From the NCBI GenBank assembly GCA_013001685.1, contig JABDMD010000174.1, positions 1-44,962 of the forward strand: DNA of 44,962 bases, in the 5' to 3' direction. The notes below the pieces were generated by a model. It was not told the DNA's origin. It saw only the letters and a program-made list of their open reading frames with translations, and made no database searches. Position 1 is the first letter of the stretch. The number at the start of each line of letters is the position of its first letter. Below, piece by piece: positions 15,168 through 31,656 of the stretch. Position numbers and translations under genes: made by a program. Source of the stretch: Gammaproteobacteria bacterium. GTDB taxonomy: Bacteria; Pseudomonadota; Gammaproteobacteria; UBA4575.

Positions 15168-15182
15168 GCAAAAAGTTAAAGC

Positions 15183-15447: not shown

Positions 15448-15470
15448 TAAATGAGGATAGGAGATTCCCC

Positions 15471-15914
15471 ATGAAAAAAATGCAAAAAGGTTTTACCTTA
15501 ATCGAATTAATGATTGTGGTTGCGATCATTGGTATTCTTGCTGCGATTGCTATTCCTGCATATCAGGATTACACCACTCGCGCTAAAATCACAGAGGCTG
15601 TCAATGCCATGGCTCCTGCTAAGACTTCTGTCGCAGAATTCTACGTATCCCAAGGCTCTATGCCTGCAAACGCTGCAGCAGCTGGTTTCTCAACCGATAT
15701 TGGCTCTAAGTTTGTTCGCTCGGTGACTTATGCAAGAACCTCAACAACTGTAGGTCAGCTTACTGTAGTCATCACCGGCACAGTTGGTGGTGGAACAGCT
15801 GCAGCTGAGACCATTCTCATGAATGCTACTGGCACACCAGGACAAAACGTAGACTTTGATTGCCTACCAGGCACCTTAGCTACTAAATTTATTCCTGCGG
15901 ACTGCAGAACTTAA
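15471..15914 (+). CDS. pilA: Type IV major pilin PilA
   Basis: Structural subunit of the type IV pilus. A short leader, MKKMQKG, is cut by PilD before Phe8, which becomes N-methylphenylalanine. The mature N-terminus [21 protein letters not shown] is the conserved hydrophobic helix with Glu5 (Glu12 of the precursor). The variable globular part is rich in Ala/Thr/Gly, and two Cys at 130 and 145 frame the C-terminal disulfide loop. Length 147 fits a type IVa pilin. AGGAG lies 7 bases before the ATG. The gene is controlled by PilS/PilR through the sigma-54 promoter and closed by a strong terminator, so it can be expressed far above the downstream genes. The many Ser/Thr residues offer potential glycosylation sites. 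Confidence 0.96.
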
Positions 15915-15941
15915 GTTAGCAATAACTTAATTTAAAAACTA

Positions 15942-15977
15942 AAACCACTCTATCGTTTAAGATAGAGTGGTTTTTTT
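15942..15977 (+). terminator. Strong Rho-independent terminator after pilA
   Basis: A perfect 13-bp stem (15942-15954 with 15961-15973), 6-base loop GTTTAA and an uninterrupted T run to 15977. Only 23 bases separate it from the next start codon, so the glycan genes depend on read-through or on a weak promoter in that gap (a GATAAT hexamer is there). Confidence 0.93.
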
Positions 15978-16000
15978 ATACCTAGATAATATAAACGCGC

Positions 16001-17968
16001 ATGTTTAACAAGCTTGAGCGCATCAGTTCTCTTTACTATTTAGCCCCTCTTTTTTTTATTATACTCGCATGCATATGGGCATATGCCCCAGGCTTACAGG
16101 GCGGGTATTACTTCGATGACCCTGCTAATATTGTAGAAAACAATTTACTCCACATAGATTCTTTACAGCCTGCTGAACTCTGGCAAGCAATGTGGAGTGG
16201 TCAGGCCAGTCATCTAAAACGCCCAGTCTCAATGCTGACATTTGCAATAAATTATTACTATTTTGGGCTCGATCCCGGAGCCATGAAAATAGTAAATTTA
16301 TTGATTCATATATTCAATGGCTTGGCATTACTGTATTTGATTCGTATTTTTATTAAAAACTCTGCTCAAAAGTATCAAGAACCTAAATTATTAGCGATAA
16401 CTTCACTAGTTGTTGTCGCTTGCTGGCTTTTACATCCAATTAATCTTACTAGCGTACTGTATGTTGTGCAGCGTATGACAAGTTTGGCTGCATTATTCAC
16501 TATTCTCTCAATTTTATGCTATTCCTTGGGTAGACAAGCTCAATTAAATTCCTCTGGAAACTGGATGCTTATTTTAATTGCTTGTCCATTTTTTGGATTG
16601 ATTGCCTTACTCTGCAAAGAAAATGCAGTCCTAATTCCTTACTACATTCTATGTATTGAGTTATTTATTTTTAAATTTTGCGCGACGTCTAAGAGTGCAC
16701 AAAATACAATAAAAGCACTTGTATTACTTTCAGTAACCATACCAATTGCCTTGCTCATTGCCTACTTTACGATTAATGCAGGAACACTTGCTGCATGGCA
16801 TGCGCCCCGCGATTTCACAATGAACGAAAGATTATTGACCGAAGCAAGGGTATTAGTTTGGTACATGCAGATGATTGTTGCACCAAACATTAGTAGCATG
16901 GGGCTATTAATAGACGAATTTCAGCTATCAACTTCTTTATTTCAGCCACTTTCTACTTTTCTCTCGATTCTATTTATAACAAGCTTAATTGGAACGGCAT
17001 ATGTATGTCGAAAAACTTTACCACTCCTCTCGCTCGGTATATCTTGGTTCTTTGCCGGCCACCTATTAGAATCTACTTTCATACCATTAGAACTTGTGTT
17101 TGAGCATCGTAATTATCTACCTTCAGTGGGTATAATTTTAGCAGTCGTAGCGCTACTTGATTTTGCATTTAAATATATTCAAAGATTTAAGATGTTACGA
17201 ATCATACTGCCTGCATTTTGGATAATTGCATTTTCCTTTGCAACACATGGTCGAGCAGAACACTGGGAAAGCCCACTATCATTAGCCCTGATTGACGTCG
17301 AAAATCATCCAACCTCTAGTCGTACTAATGTCATGGCCGGACTTGTTTATACACAGGCTGCGTTAAATGCAAAATCCGAAAATGACAAATTAGCTTATGC
17401 TGAACAAGCAGATAAATATTTCTTAACTGCAATTGAGCTTGATAAAACAGGATTTAGCTCTTCTATCGGAAGAATTGTAATTTTATATCTTCTTAATAAA
17501 CCCATTGAGATAGAATATTTTGACACATTGGTCGATAATCTTGAGAATGGAAGAGTGGGCCCTAGCACTCAATCCTCACTGCTGTCATTAATTGAATGCA
17601 ATATTGAGAGAGTATGCAAACTTCCAGAAAAGTACTTAGTATCTCTCATAGAAGCAGTACTCAGAAATCCATTACTACCTACGAAAGACAAAGGCTCATT
17701 GATGGTCCAACTTGGTAGATACTATGCAGAATCTTTAGCAAACTTAGATAAAGCCGAAGAGCTTGTTAAAGAAGCAATCAAAATGGATAAAAGTACGATT
17801 AGATATAGACTCCCACTCGCTAATTGGCAAATCCTAAATGGCAAGTATGAAGAAGCACAGATTCAATTGAATATAATGAAACAATTGGACACTTTAAATA
17901 TGAACGCTTACGATATATCTAAGTGGGAATCATTTCTGAATGATAGAAGAAAAAACAATAACAGCTAG
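16001..17968 (+). CDS. GT-C type membrane glycosyltransferase with C-terminal TPR region
   Basis: Polytopic inner-membrane protein of 655 residues. About 10-11 hydrophobic helices occupy residues 12-420, and a soluble helical C-terminal part of about 230 residues has TPR-like patterns (AEQADKYFLTAIELD; LDKAEELVKEAIKMD). The first loop after helix 1 carries an Asp-Asp pair (residues 39-40, in YYFDDPANI), where GT-C enzymes such as protein O-mannosyltransferases and TMTC proteins keep catalytic acids. A later EHRNYLPSVG motif also looks family-specific. GT-C enzymes take sugar from a polyprenyl-phosphate donor and transfer it outside the membrane. It follows pilA directly and precedes a synthase-like GT2, so a pilin O-glycosyltransferase is the natural hypothesis. 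It lacks an obvious Wzy_C/PglL signature. The acceptor and sugar are not shown by the sequence. Confidence 0.7.
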   Translation: MFNKLERISSLYYLAPLFFIILACIWAYAPGLQGGYYFDDPANIVENNLLHIDSLQPAELWQAMWSGQASHLKRPVSMLTFAINYYYFGLDPGAMKIVNLLIHIFNGLALLYLIRIFIKNSAQKYQEPKLLAITSLVVVACWLLHPINLTSVLYVVQRMTSLAALFTILSILCYSLGRQAQLNSSGNWMLILIACPFFGLIALLCKENAVLIPYYILCIELFIFKFCATSKSAQNTIKALVLLSVTIPIALLIAYFTINAGTLAAWHAPRDFTMNERLLTEARVLVWYMQMIVAPNISSMGLLIDEFQLSTSLFQPLSTFLSILFITSLIGTAYVCRKTLPLLSLGISWFFAGHLLESTFIPLELVFEHRNYLPSVGIILAVVALLDFAFKYIQRFKMLRIILPAFWIIAFSFATHGRAEHWESPLSLALIDVENHPTSSRTNVMAGLVYTQAALNAKSENDKLAYAEQADKYFLTAIELDKTGFSSSIGRIVILYLLNKPIEIEYFDTLVDNLENGRVGPSTQSSLLSLIECNIERVCKLPEKYLVSLIEAVLRNPLLPTKDKGSLMVQLGRYYAESLANLDKAEELVKEAIKMDKSTIRYRLPLANWQILNGKYEEAQIQLNIMKQLDTLNMNAYDISKWESFLNDRRKNNNS

Positions 17969-18012
17969 CAATTTATTATTACTAATATTTTAATTAGACA
18001 TCAATAAAATAA

Positions 18013-18891
18013 ATGACAAATTCAATTCGTGATTATTCAAAAATATCGATTGTTATACCTGCAAAAAATGAAGCGTCTTCTATTGGTGAACTATTAAAAA
18101 AACTTAAGCAAAAATTTCATGATGCAGAGGTTATTGTCATTAATGATGGCTCTATGGACAACACAGCAAATATTGTCCTAGAAAATAATGCGAAACTGAT
18201 CTCGCATCCATATAGCATGGGAAACGGTGCGGCAATAAAAGCTGGAGCAAGAGCTGCAACAGGCGATATTCTTATAACAATGGACGCCGATGGTCAACAC
18301 GACCCTGAAGAAATTCCAAAATTATTAAAAAAAATGGATGAAGGATTTGAAATGGTGGTTGGCGCTAGGTCATCTCAGTCTCAGGCAGGAAAACGCAGGT
18401 GGCTCGGTAATGCATTTTATAATTACATTGCGAGCCTCATTGTAGGCAAAAAAGTTAAAGATTTAACTTCAGGTTTTAGAGCTGTTAATACCAAAAAGTT
18501 TAAAAGCTTCATACACCTATTACCCAATGGATTTTCATACCCTACCACAATTACTATGGCATTTTTTAGAAGTGGCTATCCAGTCGATTACATTTCAATC
18601 GAAGCAAAAAAACGAGTCGGACAAAGTCATTTACGCTTACTCAAAGATGGCCTCAGATTCTTAATAATTATTTTCAAAATTGGCACGCTTTATTCTCCAT
18701 TAAAAATATTCACACCCATAAGTGCATTACTATTTTCAATTGGAGTATCTTATTACGGATATACTTATTTCAGTATTGGCCGATTCACTAATATGAGTGC
18801 ATTATTATTGATAGTATCAATGATAATATTCATGATAGGGCTTGTATCAGAACAAATAACCGTATTACTTTATAAATCTTCTCGTGACTAA
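18013..18891 (+). CDS. Family 2 glycosyltransferase, polyprenyl-phosphate sugar synthase-like
   Basis: GT2 enzyme resembling dolichol/undecaprenyl-phosphate mannose or GlcNAc synthases. It opens with ISIVIPAKNEASSI, then VIVINDGSMDNT (nucleotide binding) and the metal-binding DxD in ITMDADGQHDPEEIP near residue 95. The acceptor-side segment DLTSGFRAVN near 152 is typical of this subgroup. Two transmembrane helices (about 225-250 and 258-282) end the 292-residue protein and should anchor it to the inner membrane. Such enzymes charge the lipid carrier that a GT-C transferase uses, which fits the preceding gene. There is a 44-bp gap to that gene and no terminator, so they are likely co-transcribed. 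The sugar is unknown. Confidence 0.82.
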   Translation: MTNSIRDYSKISIVIPAKNEASSIGELLKKLKQKFHDAEVIVINDGSMDNTANIVLENNAKLISHPYSMGNGAAIKAGARAATGDILITMDADGQHDPEEIPKLLKKMDEGFEMVVGARSSQSQAGKRRWLGNAFYNYIASLIVGKKVKDLTSGFRAVNTKKFKSFIHLLPNGFSYPTTITMAFFRSGYPVDYISIEAKKRVGQSHLRLLKDGLRFLIIIFKIGTLYSPLKIFTPISALLFSIGVSYYGYTYFSIGRFTNMSALLLIVSMIIFMIGLVSEQITVLLYKSSRD

Positions 18892-18903
18892 TAGGTCATC
18901 ACT

Positions 18904-19959
18904 TTGCGAATTTTATTTGATATAGCTCATCCTGCGCATGTCCATTTTTTTAAAAACCCCGCTCGAATTTTATTAGATCGAGGCCATGATATTTTATTCA
19001 CAAGTAGAGAAAAGGATATAGCCTTAGACTTATTAGATGAGCTTGGAATAGAACACAAGCCCATATCAAGTCTTAACAAAAAGGGAAATTTAATTGGATT
19101 CGCAACAGAACTTATCAAAAGGGACTTCGCATTACTTAAAATTGCTAATAAATTTAAACCAGATGTTATGGCTGCCATAGGAGGTACATTTATCTCGCAT
19201 GTTGGTATCTTAAACCGTGCAAAATCGCTTGTTTTTTATGATACTGAAAACGCAACATTACAAAATGCGATTACCTACCCTTTTGCTTCATGTGTGATCG
19301 TGCCTAATTGTTATAAATCTTGGTTGCCTAAAAATCGACACATCCGCTATAGTGGTTATCACGAATTATCTTATTTACATCCAAATTACTTCACAGCAGA
19401 TTTAAAACTCGCTGAAAAAAATGGATTATCTAGATTTCAATCAAATTTTTTATTGCGATTAGTATCTTGGCAAGCTAATCACGACATTGGAGAACAAGGT
19501 TGGACTAAGGAGTTACTTAGCTCATTAATTAATTATTTAAAGTCACAGGGCAAAGTCATAATTTCTGCTGAAGGCGAATTACCACCTGAGTTTGAACACT
19601 TGCGTTATCAAGGCAAAGCTAGCGAACTTCATCATGTTATGGCATTTTGTCGTTTATTTATTGGCGAAAGTGCAACTATGGCTTCTGAATCTGCCGTAAT
19701 GGGTATACCTGCTATTTATGCTGCAAATACTGGTCGTGGCTATACAGATGAACAAGAATCGCTCTATGGGTTAGTAAAAAATATACGAGAACTTAATTGG
19801 GAACAGCTTGAATCTGCAATTACAAATATTTTAAAACAACCACCACATTATTGGAGCCAAGCGGCAGAGAAACTATTAAAAAACACAGTAGATGTTTCCG
19901 AATTTACTGCCAACTGCATTGAGCAGTTCCCAAAAACTTTAAATAATTTTAAAGTTTGA
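18904..19959 (+). CDS. DUF354 family protein (GT-B / UDP-GlcNAc 2-epimerase-like fold)
   Basis: A 351-residue protein of the DUF354 family, whose fold resembles GT-B enzymes and UDP-GlcNAc 2-epimerases. Members occur in surface-polysaccharide clusters of bacteria and archaea, but the reaction is not settled to my knowledge. The N-terminal half begins RILFDIAHPAHVHFFKNP, a family hallmark, with AAIGGTFISHVG near residue 92. The C-terminal half has a sugar-nucleotide-site-like region, FIGESATMASESAVMGIPAIYA, near residue 255. The start is TTG at 18904, just after the previous stop; no upstream ATG fits. Tight spacing with the genes on both sides indicates one operon. Alternative roles are glycosyltransferase or sugar epimerase. 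Confidence 0.78.
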   Translation: MRILFDIAHPAHVHFFKNPARILLDRGHDILFTSREKDIALDLLDELGIEHKPISSLNKKGNLIGFATELIKRDFALLKIANKFKPDVMAAIGGTFISHVGILNRAKSLVFYDTENATLQNAITYPFASCVIVPNCYKSWLPKNRHIRYSGYHELSYLHPNYFTADLKLAEKNGLSRFQSNFLLRLVSWQANHDIGEQGWTKELLSSLINYLKSQGKVIISAEGELPPEFEHLRYQGKASELHHVMAFCRLFIGESATMASESAVMGIPAIYAANTGRGYTDEQESLYGLVKNIRELNWEQLESAITNILKQPPHYWSQAAEKLLKNTVDVSEFTANCIEQFPKTLNNFKV

Positions 19960-19977
19960 CAAACGCCCTACCTTAAT

Positions 19978-21831
19978 ATGTGCGGAATTGCTGGCTGGTT
20001 TTCTCATAACCCTAATATAAATAATCCCAATAAAATTTTGCACAACATGGCTACTGCAATCGCACACCGTGGCCCAGATGGTAACGGCGCTTATGTCGCA
20101 GAACATGTTGGGTTAGCCCATACACGCCTCGCTATTATTGATATTAACGGCGGTAAACAGCCCATGTACTCCGAGGACGAACAGCTAGTTATAACTTTTA
20201 ATGGAGAAATATACAATTATCAACTACTAAGAAGAGAATTAATTTCAAAAGGCTGCAAATTTCATACTGAATCAGATACAGAAGTTATCTTACAACTTTA
20301 CCAACAATATGGTTGGAAAGGCTTCAACCGTTTACGTGGCATGTATGCGTTTTCATTATGGGACTCTAGACATAAAATGGGCTTACTCGTCCGCGACCCA
20401 ATTGGCATTAAGCCTTTATTCATAAGCACATCTCCTGACGGAAGTTTGGTTTTTGGCTCTGAGGCAAAAGCAATTCATGCATTTAACAAAAATGCTAACG
20501 AAATTGACCCTTCAGCACTGCATCAATTACTGAACTTTCGTTATTTACCTGGCGATATAACAATGTTTAAAAATATTAAACAATTATCACCAGGTAGCGT
20601 GTTCACTTGGCACACAGATGGCAAACATAAGTTGCATACACTCGAACCAAATTTTCCTGATTCAAAAAGTAGTACATTGGAATTGTTGACTGAAGCCGTT
20701 GATATACACTGCACAGCTGATGTTGAAGTTGGTTGTTATTTATCAGGTGGAATAGATTCCGCAACTATTTGTGCACTTGCTAAACGCTCTGGTAGAAATT
20801 TAAGAAGTTTCACTTTAAATGCTGGCGATGATCCTGATGAAGCAAAAAATGCAGCAACTACAGCTAAACTATTAAATATTGTGAATATCTGCGAAACAAT
20901 TCCTTCTGAAATTTCTGATTTATCTCGTCTAATCAAACATCTTGAAGTACCAAAAATCAATGCTTATCAAATAAGCAGACTTGCTGAACATGCATCTAGA
21001 CATGTAAAAGTCGTACTCTCAGGACTGGGAGCAGATGAGATGTTTTTTGGATATAACGCTCATCGGATATTCAATCGATCGCATCAAATTAATCGATATG
21101 TGCCATCCCAATTTGCGCATGGAGTTGCGAATATAGGAGGTGCAATTGCTGGAATGCTATCACCTATTCAATGGACTGAACCACAACGCGCATTACAAAT
21201 GCTTGGCGCATCAAGAGACTGGCCTCGTGTATATGGCTTACTTCGAAATGTCTGGGATTCACCTAATATGCGTAAAATTTTATATGGGCCACGATTACTT
21301 GACTCAAATTTAGCTGACGCATTCACAACACTAGAGCACTTGTGGCCTGAAAATTCAGACCCCGTTAAATCAATGGCTAATTTTGAATGGAAAAATAAAA
21401 TGGTGAATGATCTTCTCTGGCAAGAAGATCGACTAAGCATGGCTGAAGGCTTGGAGGTAAGAGTTCCGTTCTTAGATATTAAATTTGCAAACAAAGTCAA
21501 CTCATTGGAGCGTAACGTATTAATGCCCAAAGGCAACCTTAAAGGCTATATGAAAAAAATGATTAGCGAAGTATTGCCTGCTGAAATTCTTCATAGACCT
21601 AAAAGCGGATTTCAAGTTGATGCTCCAGAATTTGTTAAAAATAGACTAAAACCATTAATTGACAAATGGCTCACTCCAGAATGTATTGAACAATATGGAC
21701 TGTTTAACCCATCTTTTGTAAAAACAATTTTGAATCAAAAACCAAAAAAGTACTTACGATGGCACTACTTCATGATTTATCAAATGCTCTTGACACATAT
21801 CTTGATAGAGGAATTCGAGGGTCCTAAGTGA
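19978..21831 (+). CDS. asnB: AsnB-type glutamine-hydrolysing amidotransferase
   Basis: Class II glutamine amidotransferase of the asparagine synthetase family, 617 residues. The N-terminal Ntn domain begins Met-Cys2-Gly-Ile, with Cys2 the nucleophile exposed after Met removal. The C-terminal synthetase domain has the pyrophosphatase loop SGGIDSATICAL near residue 256 and GLGADEMFFGYNAHR near 350. Members in glycan clusters often amidate sugars or sugar acids rather than aspartate, so asnB names the family, not the proven substrate. Its stop overlaps the GTG start of the next gene by 4 bases, a translational coupling that ties the two functions together. Confidence 0.85.
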   Translation: MCGIAGWFSHNPNINNPNKILHNMATAIAHRGPDGNGAYVAEHVGLAHTRLAIIDINGGKQPMYSEDEQLVITFNGEIYNYQLLRRELISKGCKFHTESDTEVILQLYQQYGWKGFNRLRGMYAFSLWDSRHKMGLLVRDPIGIKPLFISTSPDGSLVFGSEAKAIHAFNKNANEIDPSALHQLLNFRYLPGDITMFKNIKQLSPGSVFTWHTDGKHKLHTLEPNFPDSKSSTLELLTEAVDIHCTADVEVGCYLSGGIDSATICALAKRSGRNLRSFTLNAGDDPDEAKNAATTAKLLNIVNICETIPSEISDLSRLIKHLEVPKINAYQISRLAEHASRHVKVVLSGLGADEMFFGYNAHRIFNRSHQINRYVPSQFAHGVANIGGAIAGMLSPIQWTEPQRALQMLGASRDWPRVYGLLRNVWDSPNMRKILYGPRLLDSNLADAFTTLEHLWPENSDPVKSMANFEWKNKMVNDLLWQEDRLSMAEGLEVRVPFLDIKFANKVNSLERNVLMPKGNLKGYMKKMISEVLPAEILHRPKSGFQVDAPEFVKNRLKPLIDKWLTPECIEQYGLFNPSFVKTILNQKPKKYLRWHYFMIYQMLLTHILIEEFEGPK

Positions 21832-23006
21832 TTGAATCATTATTAACAAACAAGTTAGGCCTCATTTTAGATCAGGTTTATAAATGGAGCCGCGATCGAA
21901 ATTATCGTGGACATAATAAACATGACGCACTAAATAGCCCAATACTAAAAGTATTCTTAGGTTGGAGCAAATGGACTAGAATAATTGCGACTCAAGGTGT
22001 TATGAGATTCCCCATCAACCTTAGGCCGATACTCCTTGTTCCACATTCATATAATCCAAAAGGTTTGTCATTGCTTATCAGAGGGCTATTGCTTCGTCAC
22101 AAGACACACAAACGTAATCAATATTTAGAAGAAGCAGAGACCCTTCTAAATAAACTCATCGAGATACGCTCACCTGGAAAGTGGAGTGGTGCATGCTGGG
22201 GGTACCACTACCCTTGGCAAGATCTCGGCTTTTATGCAAAAACCAATACACCTAATGCTGTCGTTACATGTTTTGTTTGTGAAGCTTTTCTTGATGCTTA
22301 CCGAGTTACAAATAATCGCAACTATTTAGATATTGTAAGTGATTCAATAGAATTTTTGTTAAATGACCTAGTTGTTTTGAAAGATACTCCTACAGAGTTA
22401 TGTTTATCTTACATGCCGATATCAATGAAAATGCGCGTTATGGATGTAAGTATTTTAATAGGGTCGGTAATAAGTCAGTACTGCACACTTTCTAATAACA
22501 CAGAATACATGAGTATTTCAAAACGCTTAGTGAATTATGTAGTAAATCAACAAACAGATTATTATGCATGGTTTTACACTGACCCCCCTCAAGACTCTCT
22601 TATAAGGCATGATAATTATCATACGGGGTTTATTCTTGATGCCTTATGGAGATACATGCAAGCTACGAATGATGATTCATATCGTGAGGTCTATTTACAC
22701 GGCCTTAAGTTTTATGCAGATAAATTATTTAATCAGGACGGTTCCCCTAGATGGATGAGCGATAAAGATTTTCCGCACGATATTCACGGCGCTGCACAAG
22801 GAATAATAACTTTTTCTAGACATCAAGACACCTATCCAGGATTCAGTAATAAAATTGCCTCTTGGACTATTAGTAACTTATACAATGAATGTGGCCGTTT
22901 TTATTACCAACAAACACCTTTTTATACTAAACGTTTTACATTACTTCGTTGGTGCAATGCTTGGATGGCATTTGCACTAGCACAGCTAGAACTTGAACAA
23001 AATTGA
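21828..23006 (+). CDS. Unrecognised protein of likely alpha/alpha-toroid fold in the glycan cluster
   Basis: No family can be named with confidence. The 392-residue protein has no signal peptide or membrane helix. It shows repeated paired-helix patterns with aromatic-rich motifs (SGACWGYHYPWQD near residue 123; DNYHTGFILDALWRYM near 262; HDIHGAAQGIITFSRH near 313). Such patterns occur in alpha/alpha-barrel proteins such as six-hairpin glycosidases, N-acylglucosamine epimerases and uronyl-processing enzymes. The start is GTG, overlapping the asnB stop by 4 bases, with GAGGG shortly upstream. Coupling to the amidotransferase and DUF354 suggests work on the same sugar intermediate; hydrolase, lyase or epimerase are all possible. 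Confidence 0.6.
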   Translation: MIESLLTNKLGLILDQVYKWSRDRNYRGHNKHDALNSPILKVFLGWSKWTRIIATQGVMRFPINLRPILLVPHSYNPKGLSLLIRGLLLRHKTHKRNQYLEEAETLLNKLIEIRSPGKWSGACWGYHYPWQDLGFYAKTNTPNAVVTCFVCEAFLDAYRVTNNRNYLDIVSDSIEFLLNDLVVLKDTPTELCLSYMPISMKMRVMDVSILIGSVISQYCTLSNNTEYMSISKRLVNYVVNQQTDYYAWFYTDPPQDSLIRHDNYHTGFILDALWRYMQATNDDSYREVYLHGLKFYADKLFNQDGSPRWMSDKDFPHDIHGAAQGIITFSRHQDTYPGFSNKIASWTISNLYNECGRFYYQQTPFYTKRFTLLRWCNAWMAFALAQLELEQN

Positions 23007-23016
23007 TACTAAAAAT

Positions 23017-23799
23017 ATGCGAAATATTGAACCACCAAATACAGAAGATCGCCCTACTCTGACAAGTGATATAAGGGATTTTTGGTCTCGCAATGTAAAT
23101 GCGGAACGCATTATGGGAAATACCGTATCGCTTGAGCAAAGAGGGGGAGAGAAATACTTTGAAGAACTGGAAGCGCAAAGATATCGCTCGCATTACCATC
23201 TAAAACCATGGATAAATTCAATGGATAAAGGGAAATCGGTATTGGAATTGGGATGTGGAATTGGGATGGACACCTTTTCGATGGCCAAAAACGGACTTAA
23301 TGTAACTGCCTTAGATCTCACAGAAGTTGGAGTTCGAACAGCAAGAAATAGGTTCGAAAAAAGCAAATTTAACGGTTCGTTTTTAGCTGGAAATGCTGAA
23401 ATGCTGCCCATAAAAGACAATCAATTCGATTATGTCTATTCATTTGGTGTACTGCACCATGCGGCAAATACTGAAAAAACGATTAGAGAAGTATATCGAG
23501 TATTATCACCCGGAGGCACTGCAAAAATAATGCTATATCACCGCCACTCTATTAACGAGCTAGTCCATAGAATAACTAAAGTTCCTTTTGAAGAAAAAGA
23601 CGAACTATGCCCTGTAGTACGAAGATTCACAGTAAATGAAGTTAAAACTATGTTTAATCAATTTTCAAATATTCATCTGCAGCTTGAATACGTATATGGA
23701 GAAGGATATGGAAAATTATTCTCTCTAACCCCTAAACTCTTATACAAGTTTCTATCTAAGCACTGGGGTTGGCATATTATGATCACAGCAAGAAAATAG
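23017..23799 (+). CDS. SAM-dependent methyltransferase (class I)
   Basis: Class I methyltransferase of about 260 residues. Motif I is VLELGCGIGMDTFSMA near residues 70-85, with an acidic motif II (ALDLT). The Methyltransf_11-type segment FGVLHHAANTEKTIREVYRVLSPGG is near 142-166. I start at the ATG at 23017, just past the previous stop; an upstream in-frame TTG at 22993 would overlap the preceding gene by 14 bases and has no better ribosome site. Position in the cluster suggests methylation of a sugar or lipid-linked glycan. The C-terminal region after residue 190 is short and contains no recognised domain. Confidence 0.78.
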   Translation: MRNIEPPNTEDRPTLTSDIRDFWSRNVNAERIMGNTVSLEQRGGEKYFEELEAQRYRSHYHLKPWINSMDKGKSVLELGCGIGMDTFSMAKNGLNVTALDLTEVGVRTARNRFEKSKFNGSFLAGNAEMLPIKDNQFDYVYSFGVLHHAANTEKTIREVYRVLSPGGTAKIMLYHRHSINELVHRITKVPFEEKDELCPVVRRFTVNEVKTMFNQFSNIHLQLEYVYGEGYGKLFSLTPKLLYKFLSKHWGWHIMITARK

Positions 23800-23865
23800 A
23801 ATACTCTAGCCTAATCTATTAGTTAACATACCTTCGAGAAATAATTATTAGTCTCGCCTCAGCTG

Positions 23866-24777
23866 ATGATCCTTAAATCTATTTCAAATATGCTGCATAC
23901 CCCAGTACGTTTTATTAAACGTATTAGACTATTTGTTTCGATGATACGTTATGGTAATGAACATAATCGTGATTTTGCTATTGAACATTATGTTTTCTTC
24001 TGCAATTTAAAAAATAAGCTACGTGAACTTGATGTTCAAATAGACAGTTTAAGAACGTTAGAAATAGGATGCGGGAAAGCTTATTGGCTAACTTTATTAG
24101 CACATAGCTCCGGAATGAATGTAACAGGCATTGATACCGAGTTTGTATCTTCGAAAAACCAATTATCTAAATACTTTAGTATTATTCGTGATAACGGTAT
24201 TGAAAGGATGCTACGAACTCTTGTTTGGGACAAGTGCTATGCAAAGCCGTATTACGATCAACTTGCAATGCAGGCACCCTTCTCGCTTAACTTTAAAGAT
24301 GTAGACATTAGACGGATGAGCAGTACAAATGTTGATTTTCCAGACAATACATTTGATTTAGTTATATCTCATGAAGTTTTTGAACATATTGATGATATTG
24401 ATAGAACAGTCTTAACACTAAAAAGAATTCTTAAACCTGGTGGAATTACGTATATATATGTACATAATTTTACAAGTTTGTCGGGCGGACATCATATCGC
24501 TTGGAAATATCCTGATACAGAACCATCCGATACCGTTCCACCATGGGATCACTTACGAGAAAAAAGCTTTCCAGACATTCCTTCTTGGCTAAACGAGCTA
24601 AGAGAATCAGAGTATAAAAAGATTTTCGAAGAACATATGGATATTATTGAATGGCTCCCTGTAGGCAAAGAAGGTGAGAAATTATTAACACCCGATGTTC
24701 GCGCAGAACTTTCAGACTACGATGAGCATGAGCTACTAACAAAAGGCTTTATTATTATAGCCACACCCAAAACATGA
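23866..24777 (+). CDS. SAM-dependent methyltransferase with internal insertion
   Basis: A 303-residue class I methyltransferase. Motif I is TLEIGCGKAYWLTLLAH near residue 65, with acidic GIDTEF after strand 2. A stretch of about 60 residues without a recognisable motif separates these from NTFDLVISHEVFEHIDDIDRT and LKRILKPGGITYIYVHNF in the C-terminal half. That insert and the HHIAWKYP segment after motif III distinguish it from the other two methyltransferases nearby, so it is not a simple duplicate. It starts 66 bases after the previous gene. The acceptor is unknown, probably a glycan building block. Confidence 0.77.
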   Translation: MILKSISNMLHTPVRFIKRIRLFVSMIRYGNEHNRDFAIEHYVFFCNLKNKLRELDVQIDSLRTLEIGCGKAYWLTLLAHSSGMNVTGIDTEFVSSKNQLSKYFSIIRDNGIERMLRTLVWDKCYAKPYYDQLAMQAPFSLNFKDVDIRRMSSTNVDFPDNTFDLVISHEVFEHIDDIDRTVLTLKRILKPGGITYIYVHNFTSLSGGHHIAWKYPDTEPSDTVPPWDHLREKSFPDIPSWLNELRESEYKKIFEEHMDIIEWLPVGKEGEKLLTPDVRAELSDYDEHELLTKGFIIIATPKT

Positions 24778-24793
24778 AAATGCACAATTTTAT

Positions 24794-26965
24794 ATGAAAC
24801 AAGTATTGGAAAATCTCAGAAATGGTGATATTTCAGTTGATGAAATACCAACCCCAACCATTAAGCCTGGACAGGTCTTAGTACGAAATCACTTTTCCTT
24901 AATCAGCACCGGAACCGAGGGTGGAACGGTTAAATTAGGAAAAATGAGCTATATAGGCAAAGCAAAAGCTCGCCCAGAACAAGTTCAAAAAGTCATTAAA
25001 GTTGTTCGAACCCAAGGTTTATTAACAGCCTACCGCGCAGTTGATAGAAGCCTTGATATACCAATTGCACTTGGGTACTCCTGCGCAGGAGAAGTGATAA
25101 AAGTTGGAGCTGATATAACCGATTTATCTGTAGGCGACACTGTAGCTTGTGCTGGTGCAGGACTCGCGAACCATGCTGAAATAGTAGCCATTCCACGCAA
25201 CCTTTGTGTGCCAGTACCATCAAGCATGAACTTAAAATATGCAGCATTCGCAACTGTTGGAGCAATTGCTATGCAAGGTGTACGGATTGCAAATGTTAAA
25301 TTGGGAGAAAATATTGTAGTTATTGGTCTAGGTCTTGTTGGAATACTAACTGCCCAAATATTGCGTGCTGCAGGCGCTAATGTTTTTGGAATTGACGTTG
25401 ATGAAAATCAGCTTTCGTATGTAAATAAACTCAATATTTGTAAAACCGAAAACTTTAATGCTGATAATTTAATAGAACAGGTCATGTCTTTTTCTGGTGG
25501 AAACGGTGCTGACTCTGTAATTATTACAGCAACAACTGCTGATAATGGGCCTGTTTCATTAGCTGGCAAAGTTGCTCGTCACAAAGCTAGAGTTGTAGCT
25601 GTGGGCAGAACCGAAATGAAAGCCCCAAGAGACACATATCTATTCAAAGAACTAGAGCTTCACACTTCTTATGCTTATGGCCCAGGCACAGGTGACCCAA
25701 GTTATGAGGAGAACGGGGTTGATTATCCAATTGGGTATGTTCGCTGGACAGAAAATCGAAACATGTCTGCTTTCATAGATCTAATCTATCAAAAGAAAAT
25801 AGACTTTAGTCATCTAATCACTCATGAATTTGATATTGAAGAAGCCAATAAAGCATTCGATCTCATTATAAATAATACTCAAGAACATGTATCAGCAGTT
25901 ATATTACGCTACCCTCATAGAGAGCAAACATATAACAAAAATCTTATCCCCCTCCAAAATACCTCCTCTTCGCCTTCTCACAATAGCAACAATAAAATAA
26001 TAGGTGTAAGTTTAATTGGGGCAGGAAGTCATGCCACAAATGAACTAATCCCATTACTTAGTAAGTTTAAAAATGTAGACTTAAGAGGAATTGCTACCGC
26101 AACAGGTATCAGAGCTCATGCGCTTGGAAAGAAATATAAATTTGAATTTTGCACCTCAGATATCGAAGCCATTTTATCAGACGATAAATCCGATTGTATA
26201 TATATATTAACCCGCCATGATACACACGCAGATTTAACTACCGCAGCACTAAAAGCAGGCAAACACGTTTTTGTAGAAAAGCCCCTAGCTCTTAACAAAG
26301 ACGAATTAGATACAATAAAGAGTGCATACCAAGATTCTAATAAAATTTTACTTACAGGCTTTAATCGCAGATATGCCCCAACAGCTATCAAAATGCGTAA
26401 TTTTTTTGGCAATCGTGCACAACCTTTATTTATGAGCTATCGTTCAAATGTGGGTTACAGACCTCCAAATCATTGGTTACATAATCCATTAGAAGGTGGC
26501 GGTGTAATAATTGGCGAAGCTTGCCATTTCATTGATTTCTGCTATTGGTTCACTAACTCACAAATTGTGGATATTAATGTAAGCGCTTTAAAAGGAAAAA
26601 ACACGGGACTCATTAGTGAAGATAACGTGCATATTACACTCAGTTTTTCTGACGGCTCACTAGCTGCAATAACATATATATCCAATGGAAGCGTTTCATA
26701 CTCTAGAGAAAGAGTTGAAGTTCATTGCGATAATAAATCAGCAGATTTATGTGATTTTAAGAAGCTAACTCTTTCCGATGGAAAACGTACTAAACAATTC
26801 AGTAATTGGATTTCTGCAGATATGGGACACCAAGCCCAATCTAAAGCTTTCTTAGATGCTATATCAGAAGACAACCAAGCATTAATTGACAGCGCAGGAT
26901 ATTTAGAGTCAAGTAACATAACAATAACTGCAGACAGTTTAATAAATGATAAATTAAATCCGTAA
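24794..26965 (+). CDS. Bi-domain oxidoreductase: alcohol dehydrogenase fused to Gfo/Idh/MocA
   Basis: One polypeptide of 723 residues joins two NAD(P)-dependent modules. Residues 1-375 are a medium-chain dehydrogenase: a GroES-like part with LGYSCAGEVIKVGADI and VGDTVACAGAG, then a Rossmann motif VIGLGLVGILTAQI near 176. A Ser/Asn-rich linker (about 380-400) leads to a Gfo/Idh/MocA domain with IGVSLIGAGSHATNELI and the signature EKPLALNKDEL near 494, followed by the substrate-side GEACHFIDFCYWF. The combination suggests two successive redox steps, or a keto-sugar epimerisation channelled between domains. Similar fusions are known from glycan clusters, but their chemistry is generally unassigned. 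It starts 16 bases after the preceding methyltransferase. Confidence 0.85.
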   Translation: MKQVLENLRNGDISVDEIPTPTIKPGQVLVRNHFSLISTGTEGGTVKLGKMSYIGKAKARPEQVQKVIKVVRTQGLLTAYRAVDRSLDIPIALGYSCAGEVIKVGADITDLSVGDTVACAGAGLANHAEIVAIPRNLCVPVPSSMNLKYAAFATVGAIAMQGVRIANVKLGENIVVIGLGLVGILTAQILRAAGANVFGIDVDENQLSYVNKLNICKTENFNADNLIEQVMSFSGGNGADSVIITATTADNGPVSLAGKVARHKARVVAVGRTEMKAPRDTYLFKELELHTSYAYGPGTGDPSYEENGVDYPIGYVRWTENRNMSAFIDLIYQKKIDFSHLITHEFDIEEANKAFDLIINNTQEHVSAVILRYPHREQTYNKNLIPLQNTSSSPSHNSNNKIIGVSLIGAGSHATNELIPLLSKFKNVDLRGIATATGIRAHALGKKYKFEFCTSDIEAILSDDKSDCIYILTRHDTHADLTTAALKAGKHVFVEKPLALNKDELDTIKSAYQDSNKILLTGFNRRYAPTAIKMRNFFGNRAQPLFMSYRSNVGYRPPNHWLHNPLEGGGVIIGEACHFIDFCYWFTNSQIVDINVSALKGKNTGLISEDNVHITLSFSDGSLAAITYISNGSVSYSRERVEVHCDNKSADLCDFKKLTLSDGKRTKQFSNWISADMGHQAQSKAFLDAISEDNQALIDSAGYLESSNITITADSLINDKLNP

Positions 26966-27021
26966 CAGATCCAAAATAGCAGTTAAACACGCCAAGTAAT
27001 ACACCCAAAAGTTATTAAAAG

Positions 27022-27936
27022 ATGACAATTCCAAAGCCAGTTAAATCCGATTTATATGATGACGCATGGCTTGATTCTGCTTGGGGCAATAAGGCTAATA
27101 AAGAGCTACTTGAAAAAGACACCCTTACAGCAAGACCCCGTCTTGCACGAGCTCTAGAACTATCTAATATAAAACCAAACTTAAAAATATTAGATATTGC
27201 GTGCGGCCGTGGCGAAATGCCAATACTTTCTGCAGAACTAGGTGCGCATGCAATTGGAATTGACTATTCATCAGCAGCATTAAGATTTGCTAAAAAATTA
27301 GTTTCTACAAGATTAGAGAAAAACCCCACACCAATAAATGTGGATCTAATTGGAAGTGATGCATGCCAGCTTCCGTTTGCTGACAATAGTTTTGACAGAG
27401 TTACAATGTTAGACATAATCGAACACTTATATCCTGATCAGCTAGAAAAAATGCTAGTAGAGGTTCATCGAATCCTAAAGCCCTGCGGCTATGCCGTTAT
27501 TCACACATTACCTAATAAATGGGTATATGATATTACATTCCCTCTCCTGAACTTCATTAATAAAAAATTCCCGAAAAACCCACGCAGCGAATCAGAAAAA
27601 AACATTCATATTAATGAACAAAATATCCCAAAATTATTCCAAACTATAAAAAAATGCGGATTCAATCAGCATATCTGGTTAGAACAATACATTCCTGCAC
27701 AAGCAAAATGGAGCAAAGGAAAAGACATCTATGGAGACAATCGAGATAACTTGTATCCTGAATTCACTGGAATAAAAGGCAGGCTATTAGAACTAGCAAG
27801 CTTAACACCGCTAAAATTAGTTTTATGCAACGATATTTTTGGAATTATCTGGAAAGATAAAAAGCCTAAAAATATCAACACTCCATTTGCATTTACAGAG
27901 AGAATCATCCGCAACTTATCTATTAACGAGCATTAA
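27022..27936 (+). CDS. SAM-dependent methyltransferase (class I)
   Basis: A 304-residue class I methyltransferase. Motif I is ILDIACGRGEMPILSAELG near residues 56-75 with GIDYSSAALRFAKK after it, then LPFADNSFDRVTMLDIIEHL near 115-135 and VHRILKPCGYAVIHTLPN. The last 120 residues are basic and carry no recognised domain. It is the last plus-strand gene of the glycan block, and its 3' end overlaps the convergent membrane-protein gene by 21 bases. It differs from the other two methyltransferases outside the SAM motifs, so each probably has its own acceptor. Confidence 0.8.
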   Translation: MTIPKPVKSDLYDDAWLDSAWGNKANKELLEKDTLTARPRLARALELSNIKPNLKILDIACGRGEMPILSAELGAHAIGIDYSSAALRFAKKLVSTRLEKNPTPINVDLIGSDACQLPFADNSFDRVTMLDIIEHLYPDQLEKMLVEVHRILKPCGYAVIHTLPNKWVYDITFPLLNFINKKFPKNPRSESEKNIHINEQNIPKLFQTIKKCGFNQHIWLEQYIPAQAKWSKGKDIYGDNRDNLYPEFTGIKGRLLELASLTPLKLVLCNDIFGIIWKDKKPKNINTPFAFTERIIRNLSINEH

Positions 27937-28827
27937 TACGGTTGTTGGCAACCAAGCCATAGCAAACACCAATCCCCTCAATAACAAAAAAGCTGTGAGA
28001 ACAGTAGGTTCTGACAAACCGATCGAAGAAAACAAAAAAATTCCCGTCAGCTCAACAGTACCTATACCATTTAGACTAATTGGCACATAAGCAACTAGAG
28101 AACTTGCTGCCACAAGGGGGATAACACTCCAAACTGAGATGTCATTTTCACCAAGTGCATTAAACATAAACCAATATGCCAATCCTATCAGAGAGATTTT
28201 GACTGTTGTTAAAATAATATTTGCAATTACGCGTTTAGGGTAAAATAATATTGTGTTTCTAGTTTCTGCTATAGCTCTTCGTACAAAGTTAATCACTTTA
28301 TGTTTTTTATTTTTAAAAAAAACATAAATTATATTTCTTTTTGCGATTAGCAATAATGAAATTACTACTAAAACAGCTACAAAACTAAATAAAGTATTAC
28401 TATTAAATTGATTTATTTTTACAATTTTTGTTAGCGCATAAATAGCTAAAGCCAACATAACTAATAACGAAATAACTTTATCTACCAAACTTCGCGCCAG
28501 TATTATACTCCACTCAAAACCTAATCGCTTAAGAAGAATCGATATACTAGCGATGTCTCCAATTTGACCAGGCACCACTAGACTAACAGACCAACTCATC
28601 CAATAAATTGGTAAAAATCGCGAAAATAATATCTCACTTTCTCTAGACACAATCAGAAACATAGCAATTGCACCTAGCATTGTTGCGACAAGTATTGTTA
28701 GCACAACTAGGCAAACAAAATTAATATTTACATCTCTAAATTCATTTGCAACTTTTCTAAAGTCAAGAAGGTAGATCAAAAGAAATAGAATCGAGACGCC
28801 CACTAATACGCGTAACCATGGGTGCAT
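27916..28827 (-). CDS. UPF0104/AglD-like integral membrane protein (LPG synthase-type transmembrane domain)
   Basis: A 303-residue polytopic membrane protein with about 8 hydrophobic helices, including WMSWSVSLVVPGQIGDIASI near residue 77 and YVPISLNGIGTVELTGIFLF near 255. This Pro-Gly-x-Gly-(D/E) pattern is the usual mark of the lysylphosphatidylglycerol synthase transmembrane/AglD family. It lacks the soluble aminoacyl-transferase domain of MprF, so it is not an LPG synthase itself. Stand-alone members accompany glycan clusters and are proposed to handle or flip polyprenyl-linked sugars. It lies 4 bases after the acyltransferase gene, on the opposite strand to the rest of the block. Confidence 0.78.
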   Translation of the reverse strand: MHPWLRVLVGVSILFLLIYLLDFRKVANEFRDVNINFVCLVVLTILVATMLGAIAMFLIVSRESEILFSRFLPIYWMSWSVSLVVPGQIGDIASISILLKRLGFEWSIILARSLVDKVISLLVMLALAIYALTKIVKINQFNSNTLFSFVAVLVVISLLLIAKRNIIYVFFKNKKHKVINFVRRAIAETRNTILFYPKRVIANIILTTVKISLIGLAYWFMFNALGENDISVWSVIPLVAASSLVAYVPISLNGIGTVELTGIFLFSSIGLSEPTVLTAFLLLRGLVFAMAWLPTTVLMLVNR

Positions 28828-28831
28828 TAAA

Positions 28832-29425
28832 TTAGTCCTCGATAGTCTTGATTATCTTTAATGGATTGCCTGCGGCGAATACGTTTGAAGGCACATCTTT
28901 TCTAACTAGAGAACATGCGCCAATAACAGAATTATCACCAACTTTAACCCCATGAAGTATCACCACCTGAACCGATACCCAAACATTTTTACCAATATTT
29001 ACTGGCTCTGTTTTAACTTGCTCTGTTGTATATTCACGCCTATTTTTACTTAAGCTATGCGCAGTTGTATCAGTAATATATGCATCTGCAATATTACTTA
29101 AATCACCTATATAGATATTCTTAACACACTGGATTGATGTTCCATTCAGCCCTGCACTATCTCCCAGTTTCACCTTTGCATTGCTTGCCAATGTCCTAAT
29201 ACAGACTGGCTTTATTGCATTAGAGATAATTAAACAATTATCACCAAACTCAACCCTACCAGGACCAGAAACGACTAATGGTCCATACACACGAAAGTAA
29301 GGACCTGCAGAAAAACTTTTTAATTGCATCTTAAACTTTACTCTATACCACCAGCCCCTTAGCCATGCAAAAAAAGCAGGAAGTACAAGATGCGGTTGAC
29401 TAATTATTCTTTTAACGAGCAACAT
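28832..29425 (-). CDS. Hexapeptide-repeat (left-handed beta-helix) acyltransferase
   Basis: A 197-residue acyltransferase of the WcaF/maltose-O-acetyltransferase type, expected to add an acetyl or other acyl group to a sugar. An N-terminal stretch of about 35 residues is basic and amphipathic. From about residue 50 the [LIV]-G-x4 hexapeptide pattern appears, most clearly in NIGKNVWVSVQVVILHGVKVG and NSVIGACSLVRKDVPSNVFAAGNPLK. The usual catalytic His position before DTTAHS/KNVWV is hard to place by eye. It is co-directional with the UPF0104 gene (4-base gap), and the two form a short minus-strand operon facing the plus-strand glycan genes. Confidence 0.82.
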   Translation of the reverse strand: MLLVKRIISQPHLVLPAFFAWLRGWWYRVKFKMQLKSFSAGPYFRVYGPLVVSGPGRVEFGDNCLIISNAIKPVCIRTLASNAKVKLGDSAGLNGTSIQCVKNIYIGDLSNIADAYITDTTAHSLSKNRREYTTEQVKTEPVNIGKNVWVSVQVVILHGVKVGDNSVIGACSLVRKDVPSNVFAAGNPLKIIKTIED

Positions 29426-29937
29426 AGATAGATGTTTATGTTTATTGTGTTTGTATGTCAGGCACAGTTTTTAACATATATAAAGTAAGCGCCAATATAT
29501 CCTCAAATATAACTTGCGCCAAACTTATAGAGAAACATAACGATATATAAGTTTAACATTTAGAAGAATCTGTTAAGAACTATATACTTCTCAGAAAATC
29601 TATTATTTATGGATAAATGACACTTCGTGCAGGTATAAATAGATACAACTGATAGTTTAATACCCATACAAAACATACTATAGGAATTACAGAGATCTGG
29701 TTGGCCGACAACTAGAACGTTAACCATCAAAATTTCACCGTTTATCACTAACAATTTAGTACTTTTCACTAATTTAGCTATACTAGATACTTCTGAGTTT
29801 TAATTTTCTAGCAAACTATCAGTGACATATGCACTTGGTCGGCTAATTACTTGATTTAAGCCAAATAATCTATACTATCGCATCATATCAAGCATCATAA
29901 CTATCTAATATATATAAGAATTTAAAGGATAATCACA
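29426..29937. other. 512-bp AT-rich intergenic region upstream of pilB
   Basis: No convincing gene is present; a 69-codon open frame on the minus strand (29769-29560) has no ribosome site or recognisable content. It contains direct repeats GCGCCAA at 29489-29495 and 29516-29522 (27 bp apart), and GCATCATA at 29880-29887 and 29892-29899 just before pilB. The region must hold divergent promoters for the acyltransferase operon and for pilBCD. Confidence 0.6.
29847..29876 (+). promoter_or_regulatory. Candidate sigma-70 promoter of pilBCD
   Basis: TATACT at 29871-29876 is a good -10. TTACTT at 29847-29852, 18 bases upstream, is a mediocre -35. The predicted start is about 55 bases before the pilB GTG. 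Unlike pilA, no -24/-12 element is visible here. Confidence 0.4.
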
Positions 29938-31656
29938 GTGGCTACAGCTGCTTCTACAATCAGAATAAGCGGTTTATCCCGTCGGCTCATTAATGATGGG
30001 TTCGTCTCTGAAAAAGATGCTGTGAATGCCCAGAAAGAAGCGCATGATAATGGAGTAGCACTCTCTACCTATCTAGTTAAAAACAATCTTATTAATGCAA
30101 GTGATCTTGCACACTCTGCCTCGAATGAATTTGGAATACCGTTGCTAAATATCAATTCAATTGATTTGGAATCAATACCAAGCAACATAGTCCCTGAAAA
30201 ACTCTTACGACAACATAATGCATTACCAATACAGAAACGTGGCAACAGACTTTTTGTAGCAATTTCAGATCCGATGAATTTAGCTGCGTTAGATGAATTC
30301 AAATTTAACACAGGCATCACAACAGAAGCTGTTCTTGTAGAAGAAGATAAGCTTGAAACCATAATAGATAAAGCTCTTGAATTAGGTGATAAGTCACTCG
30401 ATATGGATGGCCTACTAGATGATGATTTAGACAACCTAGACGTCTCTAGCAGTGATGATGAATTGGATGATGGTGGTGACTCAGATATTGACGATACACC
30501 TATTGTGCGTTTTGTTAATAAATGCTTACTTGATGCAATAAATAAAAAAGCATCAGATATTCATTTTGAGCCTTATGAGAAAGTCTACCGTGTACGTTTT
30601 CGTGTAGATGGTGTATTAGAAGAAATTGCAAATCCCCCACAAAATTTAGCACCAAGAATATCTGCTCGTTTGAAAGTAATGTCGCGACTAGATATTTCTG
30701 AGCGACGTGTTCCTCAGGATGGGCGTATTAAGATGCAGCTATCCAAAAAACGGGCTATCGATTTTCGCGTTAATACTTGCCCTACATTGTTCGGCGAAAA
30801 AATAGTATTACGTATACTAGATCCTACTAGCGCAACACTGGGAATCGACGCATTGGGTTATGAAGAGGATCAAAAACAACTTTACTTAAATGCTCTATCA
30901 AAACCTTATGGATTAATCCTTGTCACAGGGCCCACAGGTAGTGGTAAAACAGTATCCCTCTATACAGGTCTGAATATTCTAAATACTGCGGATCGCAATA
31001 TTTCCACAGCAGAAGACCCTGCAGAAATTAACATGCCTGGGGTCAACCAGGTCAACGTCAACCCCAAAGTAGGCCTAACCTTCGCATCTGCTCTGAGAGC
31101 TTTCTTACGCCAGGATCCAGACATTATAATGGTAGGTGAGATTCGAGATCTTGAAACGGCTGAAATAGCCGTTAAAGCTGCTCAAACAGGTCACTTAGTC
31201 CTTTCTACCTTGCATACTAATGACGCACCTCAAACACTTACTCGATTAGCCAATATGGGCGTACCCCCTTATAACATTGCCTCTGCAGTAAGCCTTATCA
31301 TCGCTCAACGCCTTGCTCGTAGGCTCTGTGAACCGTGCAAAGTTGTGGATGACGTACCAAATGAAGCGCTGATTGAAGAAGGGTTTTTAGAATCAGAACT
31401 TAGTAAACTAAAAATATACAAAGCTGGCGGCTGTGATCAATGTAACAATACTGGATACAAAGGACGCTCAGGCATCTTTCAAGTGTTAGCCATATCTGAA
31501 GAAATGGGGACTTTGATTATGGAAAATGGCAATGCAATACAACTTTCTGAACAAGCTCAAAAAGAAGGTTATCCAGATTTACGTGCCTCAGGATTAGAAA
31601 AGGTACGAGCTGGTATTTTAAGTCTTGAAGAACTAAATCGTGTGACAAAGGATTAA
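29938..31656 (+). CDS. pilB: Type IV pilus assembly ATPase PilB
   Basis: Cytoplasmic hexameric motor that powers pilus extension. The N-terminal MshEN/GSPII_E-N domain (about 1-150) may bind nucleotides such as c-di-GMP in related proteins. An acidic linker (DDDLDNLDVSSSDDELDDGG) precedes the ATPase core with Walker A GPTGSGKT (residues 331-338), an Asp box (DPDIIMVGEIRDLETAE) and the His box QTGHLVLSTLHTND. Four cysteines in CEPC and CDQC near 465-502 form the usual zinc site. GTG is the start codon, with AAAGGA 8 bases upstream. Length 572 is typical. It is first in pilB-pilC-pilD-coaE-zapD, separated from pilA by about 14 kb rather than adjacent. Confidence 0.97.
   Translation: MATAASTIRISGLSRRLINDGFVSEKDAVNAQKEAHDNGVALSTYLVKNNLINASDLAHSASNEFGIPLLNINSIDLESIPSNIVPEKLLRQHNALPIQKRGNRLFVAISDPMNLAALDEFKFNTGITTEAVLVEEDKLETIIDKALELGDKSLDMDGLLDDDLDNLDVSSSDDELDDGGDSDIDDTPIVRFVNKCLLDAINKKASDIHFEPYEKVYRVRFRVDGVLEEIANPPQNLAPRISARLKVMSRLDISERRVPQDGRIKMQLSKKRAIDFRVNTCPTLFGEKIVLRILDPTSATLGIDALGYEEDQKQLYLNALSKPYGLILVTGPTGSGKTVSLYTGLNILNTADRNISTAEDPAEINMPGVNQVNVNPKVGLTFASALRAFLRQDPDIIMVGEIRDLETAEIAVKAAQTGHLVLSTLHTNDAPQTLTRLANMGVPPYNIASAVSLIIAQRLARRLCEPCKVVDDVPNEALIEEGFLESELSKLKIYKAGGCDQCNNTGYKGRSGIFQVLAISEEMGTLIMENGNAIQLSEQAQKEGYPDLRASGLEKVRAGILSLEELNRVTKD

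Follow-up and report, generated by a model that had tools for sequence, protein, structure and literature searches.

An eleven-gene block between pilA and pilB of a gammaproteobacterium as a probable exchangeable pilin O-glycosylation cassette

The eleven genes between pilA and pilB in the type IV pilus locus of a Gammaproteobacteria bacterium (contig JABDMD010000174.1, assembly GCA_013001685.1) very probably form an exchangeable pilin O-glycosylation cassette, lodged in a variable slot. The window, meaning the whole stretch of 44,962 nucleotides analysed here, is contig C178 of a genome of 2.64 Mb that is 99.2% complete (G000). The genes of the block, the slot that holds them, the swapping of its contents among relatives, a recurrent core module and intact catalytic motifs are directly seen. 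A first-pass annotation had suggested that the block builds a decorated sugar used on pilin or on a surface polymer; its use on pilin is now supported by a comparison of the slot in relatives, by the pil linkage of the core and by the absence of export genes.

The pilA-pilB interval as a cassette slot

PilB was used as the query for the locus in 55 related genomes, and the DNA upstream of the best matches was fetched, so that the comparison of the pilA-pilB interval, which the first-pass annotation had set as a test, covered 15 intervals with both genes seen. The two genes are co-stranded in all 15. Eleven intervals are short, with a gap of 94-3067 bp and neither a GT-C nor a GT2 glycosyltransferase, as in G017 of the same family as the window genome, where pilA lies 94 bp from pilB. 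The other four are long (8.9-15.9 kb), and every one contains a GT-C enzyme with tetratricopeptide repeats (GT-C/TPR) together with a GT2 enzyme. In G013 (same family) and in G037 the gap is occupied by one Wzy_C-family protein; the known pilin transferases TfpO and PglL belong to this family, and the two proteins are probably transferases of that type. Judged from the contents of the compared intervals, the slot is empty in some genomes, holds a TfpO-like ligase in others and a GT-C-led cassette in yet others, and the interval is a cassette slot. A lone 256-aa protein without a Pfam match, of TfpY-like size, was also seen between pilA and pilB of G010 (L045 17272-18042).

Exchange is visible within the genus. 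In the same-genus genomes G002 and G003 the flanks are conserved (PilR 89-91% and PilB 88-93% identity) while the slot differs: identity to the window is 48% and 79% for PilA, 36% and 43% for GT-C, and 73% and 61% for GT2, in G002 and G003, respectively. Behind GT2 the only similarity to the window is of a generic kind among methyltransferases, plus an AsnB paralogue of 31% identity in G003. The G002 cassette carries NDP-sugar and aminosugar genes, with a nucleotidyltransferase, a 4,6-dehydratase, two DegT aminotransferases, a flavin oxidoreductase and a GNAT enzyme, and that of G003 holds a Wzx-like flippase, a sulfotransferase and two GT4 enzymes. Nucleotide homology between the window and G003 is unbroken over 12160-16265, beginning at pilS, crossing the terminator and reaching the start of the GT-C gene, and is found again over 18044-18860 in GT2; homology to the same-genus genomes then restarts at 29897-29917 (29917 for G003), just before pilB. 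From the points where homology ends and resumes, the exchanged segment spans ~18.9-29.9 kb. The exchange boundary thus lies after GT2 (~18.9 kb) and not at the terminator, which refines the first-pass annotation, and the front of pilA, GT-C and GT2 is a constant frame behind which the decorating enzymes vary by strain. Such a slot, differing among close relatives between conserved flanks and with a glycosyltransferase gene beside pilA across an intervening terminator, is the pattern of pilA-linked cassettes of the tfpO/tfpW kind.

A recurrent core module and a stable cassette

The recurrent core has the order GT2-DUF354-AsnB-toroid, the last being a protein of predicted toroid fold described below. 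A toroid search gave matches in 13 of 369 genomes of the class, and a scan of named genomes gave 15 loci. When each genome is counted once, the too-short contigs of G359, G176 and G286 are set aside and G134 is included with only a 31% toroid, the core adjoins pilA and/or pilB in 16 of 19 testable toroid loci (9/9 class genomes and 7/10 further named loci). Restricted to the toroid family of 52-66% identity, 15 of 18 testable loci are pil-linked, and the one distant 31% homologue stands beside pilB. A block that was scattered or tied to O-antigen or capsule export, which had been named at first pass as the outcome contrary to a pilin function, was not seen in the close family.

In G150 and G262, which belong to another family, all eleven genes are present in the order and orientation of the window, the two reversed genes among them, with identities of 35-66% and with GT-C duplicated. 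Since this full order recurs in both genomes, the cassette is a stable unit and not a chance assembly. The patchy presence of the toroid, which is absent from the pil slots of G002 and G003, points to a non-vertical history. In toroid and DUF354 trees most inner branches were unresolved, and transfer between phyla was neither proved nor excluded. A phage origin was rejected, as no viral contig encodes a toroid relative, and a plasmid origin was rejected on plasmid matches only 27-34% identical, mostly on archaeal megaplasmids. Composition likewise gave no sign of a recent foreign island, with 36.5% GC in the block against 38.7% in the window and a third-position GC that overlaps the flanks. 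Separately, locus L084 (JAHEKB010000064.1), binned as 'Bacteroidetes bacterium Ww572', matches the window from pilA through the second methyltransferase gene at 99-100% protein identity; the contig almost certainly belongs to the window's species and was put in the wrong bin.

The GT-C/TPR enzyme and the neighbouring GT2

A GT-C/TPR profile found relatives in 105 of the 369 genomes of the class (28%), and the sole copy in the window genome adjoins pilA. Of the 29 best non-self loci, 27 came with flanking DNA; in 21 of these, pilA is co-stranded with the GT-C/TPR gene and at most 1.5 kb upstream of it. A GT2 of 52-63% identity follows downstream in 22 of 29. Across cassettes the GT-C/TPR enzymes are 27-43% identical, against 51-73% for GT2, whose best NCBIfam match is AglJ, below cut-off. 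Tandem GT-C/TPR duplicates were noted behind pilA at L077 1944-5827, L079 1388-5271 and L039 14078-18088, which suggests a pair of transferases that differ in pilin site or donor.

The animal O-mannosyltransferases TMTC1-4 are GT-C enzymes with lumenal TPR, fed by dolichyl-phosphate mannose, and both their motifs and full-length prokaryotic homologues have already been reported (PMC7801869). The window enzyme resembles them in its N-terminal membrane GT-C half, its C-terminal TPR and its neighbouring GT2 of the polyprenyl-phosphate sugar synthase type. It differs in being bacterial and pilA-linked, with a donor that is probably a decorated oligosaccharide. When 49 GT-C sequences were compared by eye with the published motif list (PMC7801869), likely counterparts of the DD, RP, KE and E-R-Y-LP motifs were found in the window enzyme at DD39-40 (D39 in 46/46 and D40 in 45/46 aligned sequences), R74-P75 (48/48 and 44/47), K206-E207 (48/48 and 45/48) and E368/R370/Y372 (49/49 for both E368 and R370, 46/49 for Y372), the last with a spacing one residue off the published motif. 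The C-terminal repeats are weak in the window protein and clear in other GT-C/TPR members, and they appear as helical hairpins in an AlphaFold model of moderate confidence (predicted local distance difference test, pLDDT, 79). Together, motifs and architecture suggest membership of the TMTC family.

Putative decorating enzymes and the toroid protein

Pfam and NCBIfam searches of the block proteins bore out the family labels of the first-pass annotation. GT2 was matched at E=7e-33, DUF354 at 3.5e-13 and the LPG_synthase_TM/UPF0104 membrane protein at 4e-25. Further matches were an Asn synthase with an intact class-II amidotransferase domain, three class-I methyltransferases, a fusion of alcohol dehydrogenase (ADH) with Gfo/Idh/MocA, and a hexapeptide O-acetyltransferase. 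The catalytic signatures are intact: DAD in GT2, Cys2 and SGGIDS in AsnB, and EKP in the Gfo/Idh domain. UPF0104-type proteins are also present in the cassettes of G015, G220, G348, L085, G150 and G262, while G003 has its Wzx-like flippase in their stead. For the GT-C half of the first gene and for the toroid, no match to Pfam or NCBIfam reached the cut-off; against the N-acylglucosamine 2-epimerase, GH76 and GH88 families the window toroid gave sub-threshold matches at most, and it has no sequence match in PDB.

The 'toroid-like' label given at first pass proved right by structure prediction. A model built from fifteen sequences is an (alpha/alpha)6 barrel (pLDDT 87.5, predicted template modelling score 0.91) without transmembrane (TM) segments. 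Its nearest solved folds, at 10-14% identity, are GH76 mannanases and cellobiose/glucose 2-epimerases, with 4v1s (GH76, E=2e-7) and 5zhb (cellobiose 2-epimerase, E=3e-7) as the best Foldseek matches, at a TM-score of ~0.6. Among the polar residues conserved in 11 or more of 12 sequences across bacteria and archaea are D33, R66, K78, H265, D318, H320, Q324 and R374, which may plausibly mark the active centre; the protein is proposed to be a sugar epimerase or isomerase. Homologues of 27-34% identity are found on haloarchaeal and Methanosarcina plasmids, and DUF354 lies within the fetched stretch of the archaeal toroid loci of Halomarina, Haloarcula, Methanosarcina, Halobaculum and Haloferax, two of these five also holding a nucleoside-diphosphate (NDP)-sugar dehydrogenase. 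Several relatives are misnamed in databases: L135, L136 and L141, on archaeal plasmids, as 'antibiotic ABC transporter permease', and L139 as 'aspartate-semialdehyde dehydrogenase'.

By description, the nearest functional parallel of the toroid may be AglQ of Haloferax volcanii, a soluble protein that has been modelled on two enzymes, N-acylglucosamine 2-epimerase and glucuronyl hydrolase, and is considered a likely isomerase (PMC3827465). The Agl pathway to which it belongs (AglJ, AglG/I/E, AglP, AglQ, AglB) assembles sugars on a lipid monophosphate, with a methyltransferase (PMC3827465), and it is the AglJ model that the window GT2 matches best, albeit below cut-off. In contrast, Agl serves N-glycosylation of the S-layer by AglB, and the archaeal homologues of the toroid belong to other loci.

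A proposed pathway of pilin O-glycosylation

Based on these gene families and their context, a model is proposed in which GT2 would load the first sugar onto undecaprenyl phosphate and the DUF354 protein would extend it with one or more further sugars in the cytoplasm. Before it is flipped, the lipid-linked sugar would be lengthened and decorated by soluble enzymes: AsnB by amidation, the epimerase- or isomerase-like toroid by isomerisation, the three methyltransferases by methylation, the ADH-Gfo/Idh fusion by oxidation or reduction, and the acetyltransferase by acetylation. The UPF0104 protein would help to flip the lipid-linked glycan, and the TMTC-like GT-C/TPR enzyme would transfer it in the periplasm onto Ser/Thr of PilA. 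Swapping of the decorating enzymes would coat the pili of each strain with sugars of its own, and phage pressure is a plausible driver. Pilin glycosylation by TfpO and TfpW, the latter a GT-C enzyme, protects from pilus phages (PMC11841053), which offers a possible reason for the swapping. From these comparisons we infer the identity of the sugars, the order of steps, the flipping, the role of PilA as acceptor and the phage pressure. A C-terminal Ser/Thr of PilA was considered as the glycosylation site and rejected, since the proteins end in CRT in the window, CRS in G003 and CR in others, and no rule emerges.

The window and the P. aeruginosa tfpO/tfpW cassettes share a glycosyltransferase gene right behind pilA, a terminator between the two and a variable pilA-linked slot. 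They differ in the TPR domain and TMTC-like motifs of the window transferase and in what comes after it, GT2 and nine genes for sugar decoration, TfpW being compared by description. Pilin glycosylation islands are thus already known; for the GT-C/TPR and GT2 frame, the toroid-bearing core and the slot logic, no description was found in a literature search limited to open-licence papers. A wider proposal can be put forward tentatively, its chance falling somewhat short of even: that a TMTC-like GT-C/TPR enzyme and a polyprenyl-phosphate sugar synthase dedicated to it may together be a common, unnamed bacterial pilin O-glycosylation machine. It would run parallel to animal TMTC/DPM O-mannosylation and use an Agl-like lipid-monophosphate oligosaccharide donor, with its outer part exchanged like an antigen cassette and including a new family of soluble toroid epimerases.

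Alternative explanations and contrary evidence

A general protein O-glycosylation system, in which the GT-C/TPR enzyme acts on several envelope proteins with pilin among them, is unlikely but is the strongest of the competitors. TPR domains bind proteins, and TMTC and PglL-type enzymes have several targets. Against this, the GT-C/TPR enzyme changes faster than GT2 and PilA differs from cassette to cassette, a pattern to be expected if the enzyme is dedicated to pilin; the single copy of its gene in the window genome is tied to pilA.

Less probable still is that the block makes a surface polysaccharide, a lipopolysaccharide (LPS) side chain or a glycolipid, the pilA-pilB interval being merely a convenient insertion site. 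Three-component periplasmic systems (GtrA/GtrB/Gtr and the GT136 systems), in which a polyprenyl-phosphate sugar synthase, a flippase-like protein and a GT-C enzyme are encoded together, can decorate O antigen (PMC11127046), and the window trio of GT2 lipid-sugar synthase, UPF0104 protein and GT-C transferase resembles them. The acceptor there is O antigen, whereas in the window it would be pilin, and the window block has many cytoplasmic decorating enzymes in addition. In family searches the eleven genes include no polymerase, Wza/Wzc (OPX/Wzc) protein, ABC exporter or ligase. An O-antigen or capsule locus was accordingly rejected, the LPS-core locus lying elsewhere: the sole Wzy_C match found in the genome is in that locus on another contig, L134 (G000:C177:48000-64000), with waaA, a heptosyltransferase and hldE. 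The pil linkage of the toroid family, the GT-C/TPR and GT2 pair directly behind pilA in many families, and a Wzy_C-family ligase as the alternative occupant of the slot also argue against a surface polymer.

That the accessory genes aid pilus assembly without modifying pilin, by analogy with P. aeruginosa TfpX/Y/Z, which are pilA-linked accessory proteins of which TfpY leaves pilin unmodified (PMC11841053), is very improbable given eleven sugar-active genes with intact catalytic motifs and no TfpY-like protein recognised among them, no search having been aimed at TfpY.

Several observations nevertheless weigh against pilin O-glycosylation. A toroid relative in Pseudoalteromonas (L139), 27% identical, sits in an exopolysaccharide cluster, and others are in archaeal glycan clusters. 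Three toroid loci, L090 (a Nitrospinaceae metagenome-assembled genome), L092 and L098 (Desulfogranum japonicum), have no pil gene within the fetched DNA, and in G150 and G262 the block follows pilA only, no pilB having been found beside it. The GT-C half of the transferase has no PDB sequence match, and a fold search with its model returned mainly TPR chains and one weak oligosaccharyltransferase match (8agc_A, TM-score 0.35); because the model is moderate and the search dominated by TPR proteins, TMTC membership is suggested rather than proven. The glycosylation of PilA is itself what we infer from gene context.

A further difficulty concerns the amidated sugar. Sugar amidation by AsnB-type enzymes normally requires a uronic acid, which in a WbpS/WbtH-like uronic-acid amide pathway is supplied by an NDP-sugar dehydrogenase. 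No NDP-sugar dehydrogenase (TIGR03026) was found above cut-off in the window genome or in G150, while at least one was found in each of the other 20 genomes tested, so the usual substrate of the amidotransferase has no obvious source. Either the uronic acid arises by another route, perhaps through the ADH-Gfo/Idh fusion, or AsnB amidates something else. Both genomes without a detected dehydrogenase carry the fusion, and genomes with both fusion and dehydrogenase also exist; substitution of the dehydrogenase by the fusion is a lead. Of the first-pass claim of an amidated sugar, the intact AsnB motifs stand and the expected dehydrogenase is missing, which leaves amidation as a guess of moderate strength.

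Layout of the locus

The layout described at first pass was recovered (Table 1): pilS-pilR-pilA is closed by a strong terminator, pilB-pilC-pilD resumes at 29938, and eleven intact open reading frames (ORFs) of 197-723 aa, nine on the forward and two on the reverse strand, fill 16001-29425. The stem-loop at 15941-15974, with its T-run, is symmetric and hence able to act on either strand. P. aeruginosa pilin-accessory cassettes have a terminator in the same place behind pilA, proposed to attenuate expression of the accessory genes (PMC11841053). The spacer before pilB contains no ORF of 100 aa and no Rfam match, and on the latter result a regulatory RNA there was rejected.

Table 1. Features of the window and Wzy_C-family occupants of the slot in relatives
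Feature	Position	Strand
pilS	12178-13800	
pilR	13785-15167	
pilA, major type IV pilin, presumed acceptor	15471-15914	+
Intrinsic terminator between pilin and accessory genes, 14-pair stem	15941-15974	strand-neutral
GT-C/TPR membrane glycosyltransferase, 655 aa, proposed pilin O-glycosyltransferase	16001-17968	+
GT2, polyprenyl-phosphate sugar synthase type, DxD, hydrophobic C-terminus	18013-18891	+
DUF354 protein, putative GT-B glycosyltransferase, core module	18904-19959	+
AsnB-type amidotransferase, Cys2 nucleophile and SGGIDS PP-loop intact, core module	19978-21831	+
Soluble (alpha/alpha)6 toroid, proposed sugar epimerase/isomerase, core module	21828-23006	+
Class-I methyltransferase MT1	22993-23799	+
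Class-I methyltransferase MT2	23866-24777	+
Bi-domain oxidoreductase, zinc-type ADH fused to Gfo/Idh/MocA, EKP intact	24794-26965	+
Class-I methyltransferase MT3	27022-27936	+
LPG_synthase_TM/UPF0104 'flippase-like' membrane protein, ~8 TM, proposed lipid-sugar flippase	27916-28827	-
Hexapeptide-repeat O-acetyltransferase, WbbJ/LacA-like	28832-29425	-
AT-rich spacer, 512 bp, 29.3% GC	29426-29937	
pilB, right flank of slot, then pilC and pilD	29938-31656 (pilB)	+
Wzy_C-family protein in pilA-pilB gap	L044 2893-4368	
Wzy_C-family protein in pilA-pilB gap	L048 16505-18067	

Implications

The comparison yields a testable class-wide rule, that pilin glycan cassettes are swapped at the pilA-pilB slot, their front staying constant and their decorating enzymes being exchangeable. 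It also places in a pathway a toroid family that is shared with archaea. If the proposed function is true, pili of many environmental gammaproteobacteria would bear strain-specific sugars, relevant to the evasion of phages at their receptor and to adhesion, and bacteria would offer a working counterpart of the animal TMTC pathway in a form more easily studied.

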